Part shown: positions 11,869 to 19,750 of the stretch, one piece after another
Layout of the letters: each line of letters begins with the position of its first letter
Position numbering within the stretch: position 1 is the stretch's first letter
NCBI RefSeq assembly: GCF_004363005.1
Contig: NZ_SNYH01000001.1
Coordinates: forward strand, 186,001 to 250,000
DNA: 64,000 nucleotides
Source of the DNA: Tenacibaculum caenipelagi
GTDB lineage: Bacteria; Bacteroidota; Bacteroidia; Flavobacteriales; Flavobacteriaceae
Direction: 5' to 3'
The notes under the pieces: generated by a model
The model's database searches: none
What the model was told of the DNA's origin: nothing
The model's input: only the letters and a program-made list of their open reading frames with translations
Program-made: the position numbers and the translations under genes

Positions 11869-13665
11869 TTACTCATCTGTAAGAGTCTCCATAAAGGCTA
11901 TTAAATCTTGAATTTCATTCTCTGACAAATTCAATTTATCTGCTGGTAACGTTTGATTAGAAACATGGTACCCTAAACCTTGCCCTCCTCCTTTATTGTA
12001 AAAATCAACTACTTGCTGTAAAGTCTTATACACCCCATTATGCATATAGGGAGCTGTTTTGGAAATATTACGAACCGTAGCTGTTTTAAAAAAATGTTTT
12101 CTTTCTTCAGTTTTAAACACATTATAAACTCCTAAGTCACTATCTAATCCCGTTTCTTCTAAATTTGGAACTCCTATAGACTCCACTTCAGTTTCTGAAA
12201 AATTAGGAGGAACCGTTCCATTAAATACAGGTGGAAAATGACAAGTAGCACATTTTGCTTTTCCCATAAAAAGATTGAATCCATTAATCTCAGAAGTAGT
12301 TAACGTGTTTTCTTTTTTATTGATATTCTTATCAAATTTAGAACTAAAATCACCTAAACTTCTTATATAATCTGCTATGGCATTTCTAATATTGAAGTCG
12401 TTGACTTTTCCGTATAAACTTGTAAACGACGCTACATACGCACTATCATTTTCAATCGATGTTGTTAAGTTTTCTAAATCGGTATGGAACTCATTTTTAT
12501 TTTCAACCACTCCTACAATTTGCCCTTCTAAACTTCCTGCTCTTCCATCGTGAAAAAAGCTTTGTTGATACGCTGCATATGCTAACGTTGGCGTATTTCT
12601 AATTTGCTTCGGAAAAGCCACTAAACCATCTGTAAACGCTTTGTCTTTGATATGACAGGTAGCACAGCTCATCACACCATCTTTAGACAAACTTGTATCG
12701 TTGAACAACTTTTTTCCTAAAGCTATTTTTTCTTTAACCTTTGCATTCTCTGCCTGATGATAATCGTTAAAGAAATTAATATTAAACGTTTCTTTTGAAA
12801 ACAAAGATGTTATATTGTTATTGAATGCCATAGTTAACGGAAACTCTACCTTCCAATCTTCTACTGTATTTGCTAATAATTCTAATTGCTTATGTGCATG
12901 ATTTTTGATAAAATAAAAACGATTAAAAGAAGTAAATTCACCTTCTTGCAATACTTTTTGAGTTTCCTTTAATTCATTTACCAATGCAGTATATCTTTTA
13001 AGACTTGAAAATTCATTTTTATATACGTTCACTATAAAAAGTAAAGTTTCGTAGTTTGTTTTAGCTTCTATTAATGACTGCTCTAAGACTGGAGAATCAA
13101 AACCTGTAATTCCTACTAAAGCTATACGAGCAATCTGATCGCGTAGCAACCATAGTACATGGTATTTTTTTAAATATAACTTATTATTGTTTGCTATTAA
13201 TTTAAGTCGATTTGCGGTTTTACACACCGTTTCTTTAACCGCAACTAAGTCTACTTGATCTTCATGCAATAATTCTTCTATAACTTGGAATCCGAAAGGA
13301 TTTCGAATCTTAATATCTGTTGCATCTTCTTCTTCAACTTTTAATAGATTAGGAGCATTTACACTTTTATAGTTTTCTTTATCAGTAAAGGCCAAAATAG
13401 GTTCAATTAACTTGAATTCCCTCCTTGCTGACTTATATTTTCTTAGCTTTTCTGAAACTGCTTCAAGAGTATTTATTTCTTCTAACAACCTAATACAACT
13501 ATCGAGATGTTGCGAGTAATACTCTTGAATTTTAGCTACATAAGCTTGATTATTATCAACCTTTATATAACTGGCTGTTTTTTCTTGTTTACAACCAACT
13601 ATAGATACTAGAAAAAGACACATGATAACATGTGTCTTTTTTATTTTTTTAAAACTGTTTGTCAT
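11869..13665 (-). CDS. Di-heme cytochrome c peroxidase family lipoprotein with long N-terminal helical domain
   Basis: 598 aa, much longer than classic di-heme peroxidases (about 330-350 aa). Lipobox IVGC near residue 25 predicts a periplasmic lipoprotein. Two c-type heme motifs CATCH are visible near residues 333 and 471, with the MauG/CcpA-type context DGRAGSLEGQ and a late YMHNGVYKTLQQVVDFYNKGGG segment. Residues about 30-300 form a separate heme-free helical region; its FGFQVIEELLHE stretch faintly resembles imelysin motifs (weak inference). The stop TAA of the upstream PhoX-like gene shares one base with this ATG, indicating translational coupling. Confidence 0.9.
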   Translation of the reverse strand: MTNSFKKIKKTHVIMCLFLVSIVGCKQEKTASYIKVDNNQAYVAKIQEYYSQHLDSCIRLLEEINTLEAVSEKLRKYKSARREFKLIEPILAFTDKENYKSVNAPNLLKVEEEDATDIKIRNPFGFQVIEELLHEDQVDLVAVKETVCKTANRLKLIANNNKLYLKKYHVLWLLRDQIARIALVGITGFDSPVLEQSLIEAKTNYETLLFIVNVYKNEFSSLKRYTALVNELKETQKVLQEGEFTSFNRFYFIKNHAHKQLELLANTVEDWKVEFPLTMAFNNNITSLFSKETFNINFFNDYHQAENAKVKEKIALGKKLFNDTSLSKDGVMSCATCHIKDKAFTDGLVAFPKQIRNTPTLAYAAYQQSFFHDGRAGSLEGQIVGVVENKNEFHTDLENLTTSIENDSAYVASFTSLYGKVNDFNIRNAIADYIRSLGDFSSKFDKNINKKENTLTTSEINGFNLFMGKAKCATCHFPPVFNGTVPPNFSETEVESIGVPNLEETGLDSDLGVYNVFKTEERKHFFKTATVRNISKTAPYMHNGVYKTLQQVVDFYNKGGGQGLGYHVSNQTLPADKLNLSENEIQDLIAFMETLTDE

Positions 13666-15125
13666 TATCTATCTAATCCTTGAATCACATATAATTGACT
13701 TCCTTCTTTTGTTGTTTCAGCAGCATCATTTGCTAAAGGATCGGTAAAAGCTCCTCCATCTGCTGGAACCCAACCGTGATTTTGAGTAATTACTAAAAAT
13801 GTATTACTTATTCCTATTGTTTTAGAAATATCAATCATACCAGTAATTTCCCAAGCGTTTTCTGCAAAAGTACTTCCGTACCCTGCAGCTGAAGCTGCTA
13901 CTTGATCACATTCTAATACTTTCTTTAACTCTCCTGTTTTTAAGTTATATTGATATAAACTTGCAGCGTGATTTTTTTCTCCATCAAAATACCCATTTGG
14001 ATCTTCTTGGATGTACGCATAGTTTTCTGTTACAACAATATTATCTGGACTATGGAAAAGTTTTGCTTTACCTTCTAATTTATCTCCATCTAACACACAC
14101 GTAATTTTAGCTGCTCCGGTAGGATCATTTTCGTTTAATTCTACTTTATAAACACGCCCGTAAACTGTTCCCTTACCAATTAATCCATCTTTCTTACGTC
14201 CTGTTACACAAAAATAAATTTCGCGATTGTTCTTAGCAGAACCTCTTCTCCAATCAATATCTTCTAAACGAGAGAATCCCATCACTCCTTTTTCTTTTGC
14301 CTCAGCATCTAATAAATCAAGGTTTTTCTCTGTCAATTCAACAAAAGAAGCATTATATATTGTACCTTCTTCCATATCCATCTCATAAGTAACTCCTTCA
14401 TCAGTTACTTTTAATCCATATAGTTTACCACCTTCTAAATCTCCTCTATTTCCTACATACATACCTAGCTGCCCTGAAGGAACTTCATTATCTGAGTGAT
14501 CGTCACCAATAAACACAACAGTTTTATCACTGTATGCATCTTTACCTATTGCTACAGCGTTTTCAGTTGACCATTGCCCCATAGCTGTTAACATTCTTGG
14601 TGTACTTGCTGCTGAAGCATCTTTGAATGGATCGGTTGCAAAAACACCTTTAGAAGCACCTCCCCATTCACCTCCTGATAAATATAAAGGTCCAAAACCA
14701 TGCTCTTCCATAGTAATTAAAGAACCTGAACATTGAGCTGTACTTGCAGTTGCATTAGCATTTAAAATGTACTCTCCATGAATTGGCTTAAATGTTTCAT
14801 CAAATTTAATTCGAGCAATAGAATAATCTGCTTCAATATTATTTACTAAACTGTAAGTACCATCTGAATTTCTAATTAATCCAGAACCATCGGCCATAGA
14901 GCCATACACAAAGTTTGGTGCATCTTCTAATTTATCTTCTGATGATAAGATTGGGTAAATTTTCACTCCTGAAAACTCAGATTCTAATTTTAAAAAGTTA
15001 GGGGTTTTAGAATGAGCCTTTAATTCAATTGAATCTCCATGGTTAGGTGTACTCTCAGAATCACATGATGTTAATGTAATAGTAGTACAAACACCTAATA
15101 ATCCTAATTTAAGTAAGTTTTTCAT
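13665..15125 (-). CDS. PhoX/DUF839-like lipoprotein
   Basis: 486 aa. Lipoprotein signal with lipobox TLTSC near residue 21, so probably anchored in the outer membrane or periplasm. The fold signature is that of the PhoX/DUF839 beta-propeller family: GPLYLSGGEWGG, EIYFCVTGRKKDG and the C-terminal FHSPDNIVVTENYAYIQEDPN segment, which matches the SPD...QED metal-site region of PhoX. PhoX enzymes are Fe/Ca phosphatases. Whether all metal ligands are kept cannot be judged by eye, so phosphatase activity is not certain. First gene of a two-gene operon with the di-heme peroxidase. The ATG fits the signal peptide. Confidence 0.85.
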   Translation of the reverse strand: MKNLLKLGLLGVCTTITLTSCDSESTPNHGDSIELKAHSKTPNFLKLESEFSGVKIYPILSSEDKLEDAPNFVYGSMADGSGLIRNSDGTYSLVNNIEADYSIARIKFDETFKPIHGEYILNANATASTAQCSGSLITMEEHGFGPLYLSGGEWGGASKGVFATDPFKDASAASTPRMLTAMGQWSTENAVAIGKDAYSDKTVVFIGDDHSDNEVPSGQLGMYVGNRGDLEGGKLYGLKVTDEGVTYEMDMEEGTIYNASFVELTEKNLDLLDAEAKEKGVMGFSRLEDIDWRRGSAKNNREIYFCVTGRKKDGLIGKGTVYGRVYKVELNENDPTGAAKITCVLDGDKLEGKAKLFHSPDNIVVTENYAYIQEDPNGYFDGEKNHAASLYQYNLKTGELKKVLECDQVAASAAGYGSTFAENAWEITGMIDISKTIGISNTFLVITQNHGWVPADGGAFTDPLANDAAETTKEGSQLYVIQGLDR

Positions 15126-15282: not shown

Positions 15283-15326
15283 AAGCGTCTTAAAAAAACA
15301 TCATCAACTCCAAAATGAAGACGCTT
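15283..15326. repeat. Inverted repeat in the PhoX upstream region
   Basis: AAGCGTCTT at 15283-15291 and its exact complement AAGACGCTT at 15318-15326 are separated by 26 bp. The element is upstream of the PhoX-like gene and downstream of a minus-strand terminator. It could be an operator or an RNA hairpin. The GCGTC/GACGC core recurs in the terminators at 15846 and 16295. Otherwise 15126-15388 shows no gene. Confidence 0.4.
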
Positions 15327-15388
15327 AACAAATAAAAAACATATAAAATTAGATTTATCAACATTACTCTTATTCTTTTTAACAAAAA

Positions 15389-15408
15389 AACGCCTTAAAA
15401 AAGGCGTT
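15389..15408 (-). terminator. Terminator of a minus-strand mini-transcript
   Basis: Eight-bp stem AACGCCTT / AAGGCGTT with an AAAA loop. The A-run on its left side gives a U-tract only on the minus strand. No annotated gene ends here, so it implies a short unlisted minus-strand transcript, presumably the 15411-15473 unit. Confidence 0.75.
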
Positions 15409-15410
15409 CT

Positions 15411-15473
15411 TCAACTTGCATCATAGTTTTTACTTTGGTTAGAGTAAAAAATCATTTTGTTTTCTTTTTTCAT
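15411..15473 (-). CDS. Tiny ORF (20 aa) before a minus-strand terminator
   Basis: ATG at 15473 to TGA at 15411, with a possible internal start at residue 7. The tail MIFYSNQSKNYDAS resembles the beginning of the 38-residue ORF at 16151 (MILIYTNRSNN). A TATCTTTG box lies upstream at 15557-15550 without a well-spaced TTG, and a strong terminator lies 2 bp after the stop. Whether the product is translated or the unit is a small RNA cannot be decided from sequence. Confidence 0.3.
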   Translation of the reverse strand: MKKENKMIFYSNQSKNYDAS

Positions 15474-15577
15474 AGAATTTTCCCCAACGACGTGATATAA
15501 ATCCCCTTCTTATATCTTACCTTACTTAAGGCTTAAATTTTAACCGAAGCAAAGATATTTTATACATTTTACAACTT

Positions 15578-15621
15578 GGTGAGGTTCGCCCTTACTTTTG
15601 GTGAGGCTCACCCTTACTTTT
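15578..15621. repeat. Tandem 22-bp repeat between divergent mini-transcripts (candidate operator)
   Basis: Two adjacent 22-bp units, 15578-15599 and 15600-15621, differ at two positions. The second contains the palindrome GTGAGGCTCAC. They lie between the minus-strand box at 15550-15557 and the plus-strand box at 15676-15683, where a regulator could act on both units. Function is inference. Confidence 0.55.
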
Positions 15622-15675
15622 CACAAAAAAAAACAGTCAACCAATTAGTATTATGTACTATTTTGGTAAATATTG

Positions 15676-15683
15676 TATATTTG
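15676..15683 (+). promoter_or_regulatory. -7-type box TATATTTG before the 42-aa ORF
   Basis: Exact match to TAnnTTTG seven bases before the ATG at 15691. No TTG at the usual distance, so the promoter is weak by eye; if used, the mRNA would be nearly leaderless from 15691 or would start translation at 15700. Confidence 0.4.
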
Positions 15684-15690
15684 CTTTATT

Positions 15691-15819
15691 ATGAAAAAAA
15701 TGATTTTACATATAGCACAGGAGCTTACAAGCCCAAAATGTGGTTTTCGAGGAAATACTGATGAAGTAACCTATCGAAATCGGACGTTATATGTTAATTA
15801 TAATGAAACTCAAACATGA
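15691..15819 (+). CDS. Small ORF (42 aa) in its own transcription unit
   Basis: ATG at 15691 (in-frame ATG also at 15700) to TGA at 15819. It begins MKKMILHIAQELTSPKCG and ends near YVNYNETQT. One Cys, no signal peptide or membrane helix. A TATATTTG box precedes it and a perfect terminator follows 27 bp after the stop, so a short transcript of about 190 nt is likely. No family recognised. It may be a peptide or an RNA with a chance ORF. Confidence 0.35.
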   Translation: MKKMILHIAQELTSPKCGFRGNTDEVTYRNRTLYVNYNETQT

Positions 15820-15845
15820 TTTGATTATAAAAACTAACTATATAT

Positions 15846-15876
15846 AAAGCGTCCAAGTTATTTGGACGCTTTTTTT
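15846..15876 (+). terminator. Terminator of the 42-aa ORF unit
   Basis: Perfect 11-bp stem AAAGCGTCCAA / TTGGACGCTTT with a five-base loop and a following T7 tract. Confidence 0.9.
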
Positions 15877-16062
15877 ATATATTTTTTTAAGACTATGATA
15901 TTTTAATTTGAAACATACAAAAACTATCTAATTGAACACTAAGCAACTGACAAACAAAATGTTGCAAAAACAATAAATATCTGGATATAATCCGGACAGC
16001 TACCCTACATTCTAAAAACAAACTAACTTATTGATTATCAATTAATTAAATTAAATAAATTC

Positions 16063-16092
16063 TTGTTTTATTATAAAATATTCATATATTTG
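16063..16092 (+). promoter_or_regulatory. Consensus promoter of the 38-aa ORF unit
   Basis: TTG at 16063-16065, exactly 19 bp, then TATATTTG at 16085-16092: a full Bacteroidota consensus promoter with no annotated gene behind it other than the small ORF at 16151. Confidence 0.75.
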
Positions 16093-16150
16093 TACCATAC
16101 TTATTAAGCAATTCTTAATTGGTATTTAAAACAAAATAATAACAGAAACT

Positions 16151-16267
16151 ATGATATTAATTTACACAAACAGAAGTAACAACAAGTCTCTTAACAGAGG
16201 TGTTGATTACAAAACTAAAAAAGATAAGGATGTTTATTGTGAAGAACAATATTTTATGAAGAATTAG
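16151..16267 (+). CDS. Small ORF (38 aa) in its own promoter-terminator unit
   Basis: ATG at 16151 to TAG at 16267. It begins MILIYTNRSNNKSLNRGVDY and is Lys-rich with a late EEQYFMKN tail. It lies about 50 nt after the predicted transcription start of a consensus promoter, and a 14-bp perfect terminator follows 27 bp after the stop, giving a transcript of about 230 nt. The start shares a [YF]-[ST]-N-[QR]-S-[KN]-N pattern with the 20-residue ORF at 15411. No known family. Peptide versus non-coding RNA is open. Confidence 0.45.
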   Translation: MILIYTNRSNNKSLNRGVDYKTKKDKDVYCEEQYFMKN

Positions 16268-16294
16268 CAATTATTCTATACTAATATATAACAC

Positions 16295-16327
16295 AAAGGC
16301 GTCTTTTTAAAAAGACGCCTTTTTTTT
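16295..16327 (+). terminator. Terminator of the 38-aa ORF unit
   Basis: Fully palindromic 28 bp (AAAGGCGTCTTTTT and its complement) followed by a T-tract; one of the strongest terminators in the window. Confidence 0.92.
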
Positions 16328-16405
16328 GAAATACATTTTGCAACAAGCTAAAAACTTGTACAATTCGTTTTTTTTCACTATATTAATAGGACAAATTTAA
16401 CAGCT

Positions 16406-16513
16406 ATGAAAACATTAAAATTGCACACACTAAATGAAAAAGGACGTTTACTCAAAAAACAAGAACGCTTACTAAAATTACATTCATTATTTATAATGGT
16501 GTCACTATTTTAG
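16406..16513 (+). CDS. Possible small basic ORF (35 aa)
   Basis: ATG at 16406 to TAG at 16513: a basic, Leu/Lys-rich stretch (MKTLKLHTLNEKGRLLKKQ) followed by a short hydrophobic tail. No clear promoter box and no terminator directly behind it, so support is weak. Listed because it lies in the same array of tiny units. Confidence 0.2.
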   Translation: MKTLKLHTLNEKGRLLKKQERLLKLHSLFIMVSLF

Positions 16514-16798
16514 AATTAAAAATCAACTAGCGTTCATTTCAAAATTGCAAACGCTTCCTTATTAACGGCAAAGTAGAATTTCCTGAAGTCTGTTGTACTC
16601 AATAGGCCTTAGCAGTTACACATCTTCATACATTGATGTTTCCATCAATTTAATTCTACCAACTACCCATAATTACTTGGGCTAGATGACTATTGCTTCA
16701 ATTTAATTGAAGTTAAATAAATCGAAAAAACATTTCGATGCTATACAAGCTGCATATGCGGCCAGGAAAACTATTGTCAAAATTTAAAAATTGAAATT
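16514..16798 (+). other. Long leader or spacer before the small lipoprotein gene
   Basis: 285 bp with no convincing ORF. It contains two hairpin-forming repeats, CTTCAATTTAATTGAAG at 16696-16712 and ATCGAAA...TTTCGAT at 16721-16739. It may be the 5' leader of the 16799 gene; no known riboswitch class was recognised. Confidence 0.35.
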
Positions 16799-16993
16799 AT
16801 GAGAACTTTAAAAATAATACTACTAATAAGCATGTTAACTCTTTTAACCACTAGTTGTACAGATTTAACAGAAGATATAGTACCAAACAACACCATTGAG
16901 AAAACTGAATTAATTAACTCAATTGACACTGATAACCCAATTGATGATACTGGTGGTGATGGTGGTGAAGATCAAGGAACTGGTAAAGGTTAA
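16799..16993 (+). CDS. Small acidic lipoprotein upstream of a TPR sensor kinase
   Basis: 64 aa. Basic start MRTLKIILLISML and lipobox LTTSC with Cys20 predict a lipoprotein of about 45 mature residues. The mature part is acidic (CTDLTEDIVPNN) and ends in a Gly/Asp-rich tail (DDTGGDGGEDQGTGKG). It has its own terminator 9 bp after the stop and precedes, in the same direction, a kinase whose TPR domain is predicted to be periplasmic. No family recognised; a ligand or accessory role for the kinase is inference. Confidence 0.7.
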   Translation: MRTLKIILLISMLTLLTTSCTDLTEDIVPNNTIEKTELINSIDTDNPIDDTGGDGGEDQGTGKG

Positions 16994-17002
16994 TCCTTTT
17001 TT

Positions 17003-17035
17003 GCCTTAGGTAAATTTACTTAAGGCTTTTTTTTT
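17003..17035 (+). terminator. Terminator or attenuator between the small lipoprotein gene and the sensor kinase
   Basis: Twelve-pair stem (GCCTTAGGTAAA / TTTACTTAAGGC, one G-U) with essentially no loop and a T9 tract. It lies 13 bp before the kinase ATG, so the kinase depends on read-through or on its own start signal. Confidence 0.88.
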
Positions 17036-17042
17036 AGATTTG
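17035..17042 (+). promoter_or_regulatory. -7-type box TAGATTTG directly before the kinase ATG
   Basis: Exact TAnnTTTG match ending five bases before the ATG at 17048 and overlapping the terminator T-tract. No TTG at the expected distance. If used, the kinase mRNA would be leaderless. Confidence 0.3.
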
Positions 17043-17047
17043 CTCAT

Positions 17048-19063
17048 ATGAAAAATCTTGTTTTTTTTAGTTTCTTAGTATTATTTTCATTTTTTGCTGT
17101 TAGATGTAAAAAGCCTATTACAAATATAAATAGCATACTAAATGATAGCATTAATATTTGGATAAATAAAACAAAAAACGAAGAACTAGATTTAAATAAA
17201 AAGAAACAACTTTTACAAAAGGCTTACTCTAAAACTTTATTAAATAAAAATGATAGTCTGAAAGCTATTAATCTTAGCTCCATTGCATATAGATACTATA
17301 AATTAAATGACTCTATCAATTTTTTTAAAATCAATAAAGAGGCTTTTGGTTTAGCAAAGAAAATTAACAACTCCTACATCTTAGGTGACGTCCACTGGAG
17401 TTTTGCTAACTTTCATAAAACAGCAAAAAAATTTGAACAAGCTTATTATCATTTCAATAATGCTCACAAATACTTCCAAAAAACAGATAATACAGATAAT
17501 TCTGCTATAATGCTTTATGGAATGGCTTTTATAAAAGGTAGATATAGGGATTATTCAGGAAGTGAAATACTAACTATAGAAGCTATCAAAAACTTCAATC
17601 AAACAAAAAATAACAAGAGACTATTCTCTTGTTACAATCATCTTGGCTTACTACAAAATGATATCAAAGAATATGATAAAGCTCTAGAATACTACAATAA
17701 ATCCTTAAGTTATCTAATAAAACTTGATAATAAAAATTCAGAAGCAAGATACATATCTCTTTACACCAATATAGGTAATACTTATTTAAAAAAGAAAGAG
17801 TACAAAAAAGCTATAGAATTTTATAACAAAGCTTTAAAAAAAGAAGTAACACCTAATAGTTATGCTATAACACTAGATAATAGAGCTTATTGTAAACTTT
17901 TATCAAGAGACACTTTAAATATAAAATCAGAACTTTTTAAAGCCCTATCTATAAGAGATAGCTTAAAAAACATTGAAGGGTTATTAACTTCTAAAACACA
18001 TATTTCAGACTACTACAAGTACATAAACGATACACTTAATGCTCTTAGCTATGCTAAAGAAGCTAACAATATTGCTAAAAAACTAAAAAACGGTAGAGAT
18101 TATTTAACTACCTTAAATCAGCTGGCTAACTTAGACACCAAAAACTCTAAAAAATACTTGGACAGCTATATTGAATTCAACGATAGTTTGATTAGTGCAG
18201 AGCGAAGAATACAAAATAAATTTACGCGTATTGAATTTGAAACCGATGAATATATTGAAGAAACCAAACGTTTGAGTCAGCAACGTATTTGGATACTTAT
18301 TACCAGTTTTGCTGGGATTTTAATCCTTAGTTTATTGTATTTCTTAGGAGTTCAGAAAGCTAAAAACGAAAAACTTAGCCTAGAGTCTGAACAACAAAAA
18401 GCGAACGAAGAAGTTTATATACTTACTTTACAACAACAAGCTAAACTAGAAGAAGAAAAAATTAAAGAACGCAACCGAATATCAGAAGAATTACACGATG
18501 GTATTTTAGGCAAATTGTTTGGTACTCGTTTTGGTTTAGGTTTTTTAAATATTCAAGGTGATGAAGAAGTTTTAGAAAAACACCAAACTCTCTTAAACGA
18601 GCTACAAGACATTGAAAAAGAAATAAGAGACGTTTCCCATAAATTAAGTGATAATTTTGACGGTTCCAACATCAATTTCACCTCTATTATTGAACAACTT
18701 TTAAAAGACAAAAGCGAAATCGGGAATTTTAAATATCAATTTATATCTGATGAAAATATCTCTTGGAAAAGTATAGATGAAATCACCAAAGCAAATGTAT
18801 ATCGTATTATACAAGAAGCTTTACAAAATATTATTAAGCATGCTGAAGCTAAAAACATTACCCTCAGCTTATCTACAGATACACACAACCTTATAATTCA
18901 CTTAAAGGACGATGGAAAAGGGTTTAATGTTAAAAAGAAAAAAACAGGTATTGGAATAAAGAATATTAATTCTCGAATAAAAAAGCTAAAAGGTACTGTG
19001 CAACTAGATTCAGAAATTAATAATGGAACTTTATTATCTTTGACCATTCCTCTTAAAAGTTAA
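17048..19063 (+). CDS. TPR-domain sensor histidine kinase (HisKA_3/NarX type)
   Basis: 671 aa. An N-terminal hydrophobic signal ends in a possible lipobox (FAVRC, Cys20). Residues about 60-390 are TPR repeats (for example KEYDKALEYYNKSLSYLIKL and KEYKKAIEFYNKALKKE). One transmembrane helix at about 412-435 (IWILITSFAGILILSLLYFL) leads to a coiled coil. The dimerisation/phosphoacceptor segment is RNRISEELHDGILGKLFGTR with His near 483. The ATPase N-box is EALQNIIKHAEA and the G-box DDGKGFN...GIGIKNI. The TPR part should face the periplasm. The response regulator follows 3 bp later. The ligand is unknown. Confidence 0.93.
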   Translation: MKNLVFFSFLVLFSFFAVRCKKPITNINSILNDSINIWINKTKNEELDLNKKKQLLQKAYSKTLLNKNDSLKAINLSSIAYRYYKLNDSINFFKINKEAFGLAKKINNSYILGDVHWSFANFHKTAKKFEQAYYHFNNAHKYFQKTDNTDNSAIMLYGMAFIKGRYRDYSGSEILTIEAIKNFNQTKNNKRLFSCYNHLGLLQNDIKEYDKALEYYNKSLSYLIKLDNKNSEARYISLYTNIGNTYLKKKEYKKAIEFYNKALKKEVTPNSYAITLDNRAYCKLLSRDTLNIKSELFKALSIRDSLKNIEGLLTSKTHISDYYKYINDTLNALSYAKEANNIAKKLKNGRDYLTTLNQLANLDTKNSKKYLDSYIEFNDSLISAERRIQNKFTRIEFETDEYIEETKRLSQQRIWILITSFAGILILSLLYFLGVQKAKNEKLSLESEQQKANEEVYILTLQQQAKLEEEKIKERNRISEELHDGILGKLFGTRFGLGFLNIQGDEEVLEKHQTLLNELQDIEKEIRDVSHKLSDNFDGSNINFTSIIEQLLKDKSEIGNFKYQFISDENISWKSIDEITKANVYRIIQEALQNIIKHAEAKNITLSLSTDTHNLIIHLKDDGKGFNVKKKKTGIGIKNINSRIKKLKGTVQLDSEINNGTLLSLTIPLKS

Positions 19064-19066
19064 ATT

Positions 19067-19750
19067 ATGGGCAATAAAGAGTATACTGCTTTAATCATTG
19101 ACGATCATCCACTAATTTCTGAAGCTTATAAAAGCGCTTTCAATCATGTAACGAAGTTGAACCAACATACAACTTTTAACATACATATAGCACATAACTG
19201 CGATTCAGCATTTACTTTATTGCAAGAACATATAAATACTAGCTCACAAATTGACATTGTTTTTTTAGACATGAGGCTTCCTCCTTCTAAAGATGGAAAA
19301 ATTTTATCTGGTGAAGACTTAGGGTTGAAAATAAAAGAAATGCACCCAGAAGCAAAAATAATTGTTTCTACTACTTTTAATGATAACTATAGAGTACATA
19401 GCATCTTAAAAAACATCAATCCTGATGGATTTTTGGTAAAAAACGATATCACTCCACATGAATTAGTTACCGCTATACAAGAAGTTATAACGGACCCTCC
19501 ATATTACAGTAAAACTATCACAAAACTTCTTAGAAATGAAGTTACTAGTGATTATTTACTTGATGATATAGACAGAAAAATAATACATGAACTTTCAATA
19601 GGTACACGTATGAAAGATTTACCTGAGATAGTGCATTTATCAATAGCAGCGATAGAAAAAAGAAAACGTCAAATGAAGCTAACATTTGGTATTAAAAGCC
19701 CAGACGATAAAGACCTTATTCTAATAGCGAGGGATAAAGGTTTTATTTAA
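19067..19750 (+). CDS. NarL/LuxR-type response regulator
   Basis: 227 aa. Receiver domain at about 1-140: acidic pair IIDDHPLIS, phosphoacceptor Asp near 68 in DIVFLDMRLPP, the Thr/Ser switch at VSTTF, and Lys in GFLVKND. The C-terminal helix-turn-helix at about 165-227 (IIHELSIGTRMKDLPEIVHLSIAAIEKRKRQMK) is a divergent LuxR-type DNA-binding domain. Starts 3 bp after the kinase stop, so the two form a cognate pair. Target genes are unknown; the upstream mini-transcripts are candidates by position only. Confidence 0.92.
   Translation: MGNKEYTALIIDDHPLISEAYKSAFNHVTKLNQHTTFNIHIAHNCDSAFTLLQEHINTSSQIDIVFLDMRLPPSKDGKILSGEDLGLKIKEMHPEAKIIVSTTFNDNYRVHSILKNINPDGFLVKNDITPHELVTAIQEVITDPPYYSKTITKLLRNEVTSDYLLDDIDRKIIHELSIGTRMKDLPEIVHLSIAAIEKRKRQMKLTFGIKSPDDKDLILIARDKGFI

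Follow-up and report, generated by a model that had tools for sequence, protein, structure and literature searches.

The stretch of DNA analysed here (hereafter the window; 64,000 nt of Tenacibaculum caenipelagi contig NZ_SNYH01000001.1, positions 186,001–250,000) carries a gene for a 64-amino-acid (aa) predicted lipoprotein upstream of genes for a tetratricopeptide repeat (TPR) sensor histidine kinase and its cognate response regulator, headed by a conserved leader and preceded by three mini-units with very short open reading frames (ORFs; Table 1). A divergent PhoX-like gene flanks this array on one side and, by eye, an acetyl-CoA synthetase-like gene on the other. All elements named in an original prediction, made from the letters of this DNA alone, were recovered in place by sequence, ORF, terminator and Pfam checks, and the closest named relatives of both lipoprotein and kinase are mostly from Tenacibaculum. 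Judged by sequence, the lipoprotein gene is one branch of a Flavobacteriaceae-wide group of hypervariable small genes located upstream of orthologous TPR histidine kinases, and we think it fairly probable that its product is the ligand precursor of the neighbouring kinase.

Table 1 Features of the lipoprotein–kinase array in the window.
Feature	Position	Strand	Remarks
20-aa ORF, mini-unit	15411..15473	-	frame interrupted in 7/12 relatives' matches
42-aa ORF, mini-unit	15691..15819	+	own TATATTTG element at 15676; terminator 15846-15872
Bacteroidota-type promoter (TTG-N-TATATTTG) of the 38-aa unit	16063..16092	+	motif match
38-aa ORF, mini-unit	16151..16267	+	terminator 16295-16322
Conserved leader of the lipoprotein gene, probably non-coding	16380..16798	+	core 16446-16779
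64-aa predicted lipoprotein, proposed peptide-ligand precursor	16799..16993	+	lipobox TTSC; acidic residues after Cys; tail DDTGGDGGEDQGTGKG
Terminator between putative ligand gene and kinase gene	17003..17026	+	terminator scan
TPR sensor histidine kinase	17048..19063	+	signal peptide, TPR sensor, transmembrane helix, HisKA_3, HATPase_c
Cognate response regulator	19067..19750	+	receiver domain and weak helix-turn-helix

Kinase loci came from three sources: named genomes (78 loci), Tenacibaculum (18/58 genomes at E ≤ 1e-100) and further genera within the family (34/41 genomes matching at E ≤ 1e-20); a class-level search, in which eight candidates per genome were scored, gave matches only in Flavobacteriaceae (4/149 genomes at E ≤ 1e-40). 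An upstream ORF was counted when it began with ATG, encoded 38–130 aa that open with a hydrophobic segment and are otherwise hydrophilic, lay on the kinase strand and ended ≤650 bp upstream of the kinase. Such a small, predicted secreted or lipidated ORF is found just upstream in 109 of the 121 orthologous kinase loci with enough upstream sequence (three more were too short), compared with 14 of 378 control genes, two of these 14 being the same kind of ORF; a stricter first filter gave 77/93 loci and 5/205 controls, and the counts of the wider filter are used here. L074 and L107, among the 12 loci missed by the filter, carry repeat precursors by eye, and a genus-level sample of the family gave a small ORF by eye in 26 of 29 newly fetched loci. 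Loci L015–L031 share species with L032–L049, and 101 distinct precursor sequences were left after the adjacency filter. The lipoprotein–kinase adjacency, proposed together with the original prediction as a check on it, is thus conserved across Flavobacteriaceae, and the loss of pairing that would have spoken against a link was not seen. Inherited synteny with no functional coupling is extremely improbable: all loci come from one family, but the pair persists in many genera whose other neighbouring genes differ. A different arrangement was observed at L077, L081, L084 and L209, where related kinases have no small ORF and a gene for a lipoprotein of ~190 aa lies upstream instead (complete in L081 and L209).

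At 11 loci the upstream slot encodes repeat precursors of six types, in which a signal peptide or lipoprotein signal is followed by 2–6 copies of a 10–20-residue unit (xxGxGxxGGNVRLD in L067, L068, L071, L074 and L107; SENGDGSAVTGGKRALVIQ in L075 and L104; EIGGQSQRPTL in L088; LGGRDSTGGL in L096; CDDCAHDSDDRET in L117; TGGGVDERD in L135). When whole units were compared by register (41 copies in 11 genes), differences were found at 217/652 synonymous sites (proportion, pS, 0.333) and at 66/1949 non-synonymous sites (pN 0.034), with a pooled pairwise pN/pS of 0.10; pattern-matched unit cores gave 0.045, a value that the matching itself favours by lowering pN. Copies in L067, L068 and L074 show no amino-acid difference at all, and L096 is intermediate (whole-unit pN/pS 0.18). 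The L071 precursor has 85 database homologs with a well-kept leader, in which copies within a gene are alike (identity 0.99, at a parse threshold of ≥0.6) and last units of different genes diverge (identity 0.61; 65 distinct units in 74 genes). One clear repeat-precursor site per genome, at the kinase, was found in 5/5 genomes, with one additional weak match (E 0.017) in one of them. By sequence, the genes in this slot look like multi-copy peptide-signal precursors, and since the counterparts of the window gene are hypervariable and in several lineages present the same peptide up to six times, the gene likely makes the peptide signal that the kinase would sense. One repeat-peptide precursor, P0058, is labelled 3-oxoacyl-ACP reductase in public databases, evidently a mislabel.

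The repeats also bear on two other readings. A precursor carrying multiple TPR-binding motifs, whether anchored or soluble, could cluster kinases with no proteolytic release, which would suit the copy number of 1 to 5 in the L071 homologs and the binding of extended motifs by LGN-type TPR superhelices; however, most lineages have a single copy, and 81 of the 85 homologs end in D or E, the last residue of the unit, hinting at a role for a free C-terminus. We regard such clustering as improbable. Alternatively, the small gene could be an output, that is, a regulated and perhaps antimicrobial surface peptide encoded merely beside its regulator: it has its own terminator, and bacteriocins, too, include hypervariable secreted peptides encoded beside two-component systems. 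Against this, the mostly silent variation between repeats and the single clear precursor locus per genome fit a recognised signal, and the receptor fold (below) resembles peptide-binding TPRs, so that an output gene appears quite improbable.

The tail analysis covered 104 distinct sequences, one of them a wrong overlapping ORF taken by the filter at L048, where the real lipoprotein is present. A loose lipobox pattern was identified in 72 (at least four doubtful: L097, L125, L127, L131), and in 66 of these 72 at least two acidic residues occur between +2 and +8. The window lipoprotein combines both features, reading CTDLTED from the lipobox Cys, which resembles but is not identical to the SDDFE or QKDDE consensus of the Bacteroidetes surface lipoprotein export signal, as given in PMC5080379. 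At the other end of the protein, TG[GDE] is found in the tails of 60/104 sequences (19.8 ± 3.6 when shuffled) and K or R among the last five residues in 74/104 (34 ± 4 when shuffled); the window tail has a TG[GDE] core and a basic residue near its end.

In L076, L078, L079 and L080 whole lipoprotein genes are in tandem, with three to five small lipoprotein or secreted-protein genes upstream of the kinase. Within each locus these genes share an identical ten-residue C-terminus (TDPIIIPKKD type), except for the copy nearest the kinase, whose end reads NPILI(I/V)KND. Among the tandem genes compared (four of L076 and three of L079), identity is 100% in the last 10 residues, 90–93% in the acidic stretch after Cys, 60–63% in the middle and 43–61% in the signal. 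An envelope sentinel or accessory subunit, i.e. an anchored lipoprotein that reports the state of the membrane or of lipoprotein trafficking to the TPR kinase with no free peptide, as NlpE reports envelope state to CpxA, would agree with the frequency of lipobox and acidic residues, their likeness to the surface export signal and the well-kept acidic stretch. We nevertheless consider it unlikely, as the slot also holds lipobox-free signal-peptide proteins made of tandem peptide copies, and the tail is the best-kept part of the tandem genes.

L027 and L048 have a second, 47-aa ORF between lipoprotein and kinase, which joins a near-identical tail (FTGGG...TGKE) to a different leader with a GG-containing N-terminal part, possibly a double-glycine leader; this suggests another export route for the same peptide. 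In the T. caenipelagi genome two of eight other kinase matches (L010 and L011) are preceded by small ORFs bearing DTGG, one with a signal peptide and one without. Together with the second ORFs of L027 and L048, these indicate that leaders change while tails recur.

Pfam identified TPR, HisKA_3 and HATPase domains in the kinase, with a transmembrane helix by eye at about residues 413–435, and in the AlphaFold model of the window sensor most of the TPR part scores above 93 in the predicted local distance difference test (pLDDT). For the sensor models of both the window and L068, the best Foldseek match was to LGN structures (peptide complexes), and the top 50 included designed consensus TPRs, OGT, Rap (from rank 32 in one search and 24 in the other) and, in the latter search only, NprR (rank 32). 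Three asparagines (Asn197, Asn241 and Asn278), 85–97% conserved in 116 distinct kinases, occupy equivalent places in the TPR helices by eye; in OGT-type TPRs, an asparagine ladder binds the peptide backbone. A loose lipobox-like Cys follows the N-terminal hydrophobic stretch in 43 of the 116 kinases (that of the window and relatives), so that the sensor may itself be lipidated at the N-terminus. The kinase of the original prediction is thus borne out by its domains, and the adjacent regulator has a receiver domain, but the NarL type assigned to the latter is less clear: Pfam gave only a sub-threshold HTH_AsnC match and no clear NarL/GerE domain for the DNA-binding part, and NCBIfam gave weak NarL-family matches far below cut-off.

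Ten terminators were detected on the two strands between 14000 and 20500 (2.3 ± 1.7 in shuffles). A strong terminator had been proposed for each small unit; the scan supports this for the 42-aa, 38-aa and lipoprotein units, while for the 20-aa unit a terminator-like hairpin is visible in the sequence but absent from the scan list. In 76 of 109 loci a terminator-like hairpin lies in the gap between precursor and kinase genes (0.3 expected from shuffles), and mRNA of the putative ligand is therefore probably made in excess over kinase mRNA.

In the mechanism that we favour, the small protein would be exported, as a lipoprotein in the window and with a plain signal peptide elsewhere, and its C-terminal tail (ending DDTGGDGGEDQGTGKG in the window), which is probably the ligand of the neighbouring kinase, would lie in the concave groove of the extracytoplasmic TPR domain as its bound partner, still anchored or released by proteolysis. 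The kinase would then alter phosphorylation of the adjacent regulator, and the intervening terminator would hold ligand mRNA above kinase mRNA; the peptide may act between cells, as a pheromone, or solely within one cell. In Tenacibaculum the putative ligand gene is also headed by the conserved leader, and the mini-units travel with the module. Comparison supports the earlier proposal of the lipoprotein as source of the kinase signal, through the adjacency, the repeat precursors and the peptide-binding-like TPR fold, but AlphaFold models of precursor–sensor fusions do not add to it: the TPR is confident and the tail undocked and disordered (pLDDT 31–54), a modelling outcome that neither proves nor excludes binding.

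Several further observations weigh against the tail as ligand. Even by eye, 10/121 loci have no small upstream ORF; among more distant TPR-kinase paralogs (kinase start uncertain for several) only 6/20 have one, so the ORF marks part of the TPR kinases and not all, and of the eight further kinase matches in the T. caenipelagi genome six showed none. The window precursor has no repeats, its tail being a low-complexity Gly/Asp stretch, and whole-unit pN/pS reaches 0.72 in L135, not clearly silent-only, and 0.25 in L088. Related sequences are not independent, so that motif shuffles and Fisher-type figures overstate significance, and the Foldseek matches extend to TPR proteins other than peptide receptors (designed repeats, OGT). 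Our confidence in a ligand is tempered slightly by the less clean repeat recount and by quorum receptors not being the top fold matches.

Among known systems, the closest analogy would be with peptide-pheromone receptor kinases and, through the TPR domain, somewhat with RRNPP. In agr, ComQXPA and fsr a small hypervariable precursor gene adjoins genes for a sensor kinase and response regulator; a short precursor gene is likewise beside such a pair here, and in relatives it is hypervariable with a constrained putative mature peptide, the window gene being single-copy. Those systems have polytopic membrane domains as sensors, often modify their peptides and include dedicated processing genes, whereas the present pair uses a soluble TPR domain as sensor and has no evident processing gene next to it in the window. 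FimS/FimR of Porphyromonas gingivalis also includes a TPR-bearing Bacteroidota sensor kinase, but the NCBIfam FimS model matches residues 127–403 (TPR) of the window kinase (E 3.9e-11), at 41.9 bits compared with an equivalog cut-off of 600, and to our knowledge no small peptide gene is part of its description. LGN/Pins, whose TPRs bind NuMA, Inscuteable and Frmpd4 peptides, is the best structural match for both sensor models but is a eukaryotic cytosolic scaffold of unrelated function. In NlpE-CpxA and RcsF activation a small lipoprotein is considered to act on an inner-membrane kinase system, but these lipoproteins have folded domains and are not known to be encoded beside the kinase or to contain repeats.

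RRNPP systems (Rap, NprR, PlcR, PrgX), which PMC10075063 describes for Gram-positive Firmicutes, share with the pair a TPR superhelix, here in a putative receptor, and an adjacent gene for a small exported propeptide. Here such a gene, with predicted export, is that of the 109/121 loci, and the TPR fold of the putative peptide receptor is present by Pfam and by AlphaFold2/Foldseek. RRNPP receptors are intracellular and act on DNA or a phosphorelay protein, whereas in the window the TPR domain forms the N-terminal sensing part of a histidine kinase in the membrane, ahead of a transmembrane segment and HisKA_3/HATPase_c, and the system is therefore not an RRNPP member. Among the open PMC full-text matches listed, none described a peptide ligand paired with a TPR receptor kinase in Bacteroidota. 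More tentatively, Flavobacteriaceae might possess a peptide-pheromone language of their own, a Gram-negative counterpart of RRNPP and agr in which lipid-anchored or Sec-secreted, hypervariable and often repeated peptides are read extracytoplasmically by TPR receptor histidine kinases, and to which Tenacibaculum adds an RNA leader and small-RNA or micro-ORF units; we would not put this at even chances. If the ligand proposal is right, a large set of orphan TPR kinases would gain candidate ligands that can be read from genomes and synthesised, and their signalling would become directly testable.

The leader of the lipoprotein gene (~400 nt) is a larger feature that the original prediction overlooked. 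It is kept in most of the Tenacibaculum loci aligned and weakly in a Polaribacter locus (L063), and occurs once in the T. caenipelagi genome. A covariance model of its core matched 13/58 genomes of the genus, all among the 18 kinase-positive ones and sited at the kinase (plus one extra match at E 0.05), with no match in the other 5/18. Both sides change in 1/24 predicted pairs of the core, 13 of which never vary, and in 10/48 pairs of a longer alignment; with covariation this weak, the leader is conserved and an RNA structure only plausible. It is probably non-coding. A 35-aa ORF within it (16406-16513) was rejected as a gene, its frame being broken in L015, and a known Rfam family was also rejected, with no match in the window at the Rfam gathering score and none within 16446-16779 up to E 5.

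The mini-units were also predicted as three short ORFs that might tune the kinase. The 42-aa and 38-aa frames are syntenic, the former across 13 further Tenacibaculum loci, and contain almost no indels, but the 20-aa ORF, with a TATCTTTG element at 15557, has an internal stop in 7 of 12 syntenic matches in which the FYSNQSK core and the DNA are kept; as drawn it is doubtful, and the unit may instead be an RNA or encode a shorter peptide. Constraint on the two longer ORFs is weak (in-frame pN/pS 0.64 for 42 aa and 0.79 for 38 aa) and the second codon position is the most variable, but shifted frames reverse the ratio and both may be weakly coding. Among the 58 genomes of the genus, the 42-aa unit is found in five and the 38-aa unit in eight, each of the latter adjoining the kinase, and all are kinase-positive (chance probability 2e-3 and 2e-5, respectively, ignoring relatedness); this circumstantial association is what remains of the tuning proposal, and the mini-units could be regulators or targets of the lipoprotein–kinase module. 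No paralogs of the 38-aa ORF were found elsewhere in the T. caenipelagi genome. Its full consensus promoter is present as predicted and is the sole match to TTG-N(18-24)-TAnnTTTG on either strand in 15300-17100, but 0.41 matches are expected by chance in this interval and the motif alone is without significance.

Divergent from the array, the window carries the PhoX-like gene together with a di-haem cytochrome c peroxidase gene (11869-15125). PhoX was matched in 8 fetched loci and the peroxidase in 9, many of the loci being too short to show either, which weakens both as fixed partners of the module; the two genes are possible targets of the regulator.

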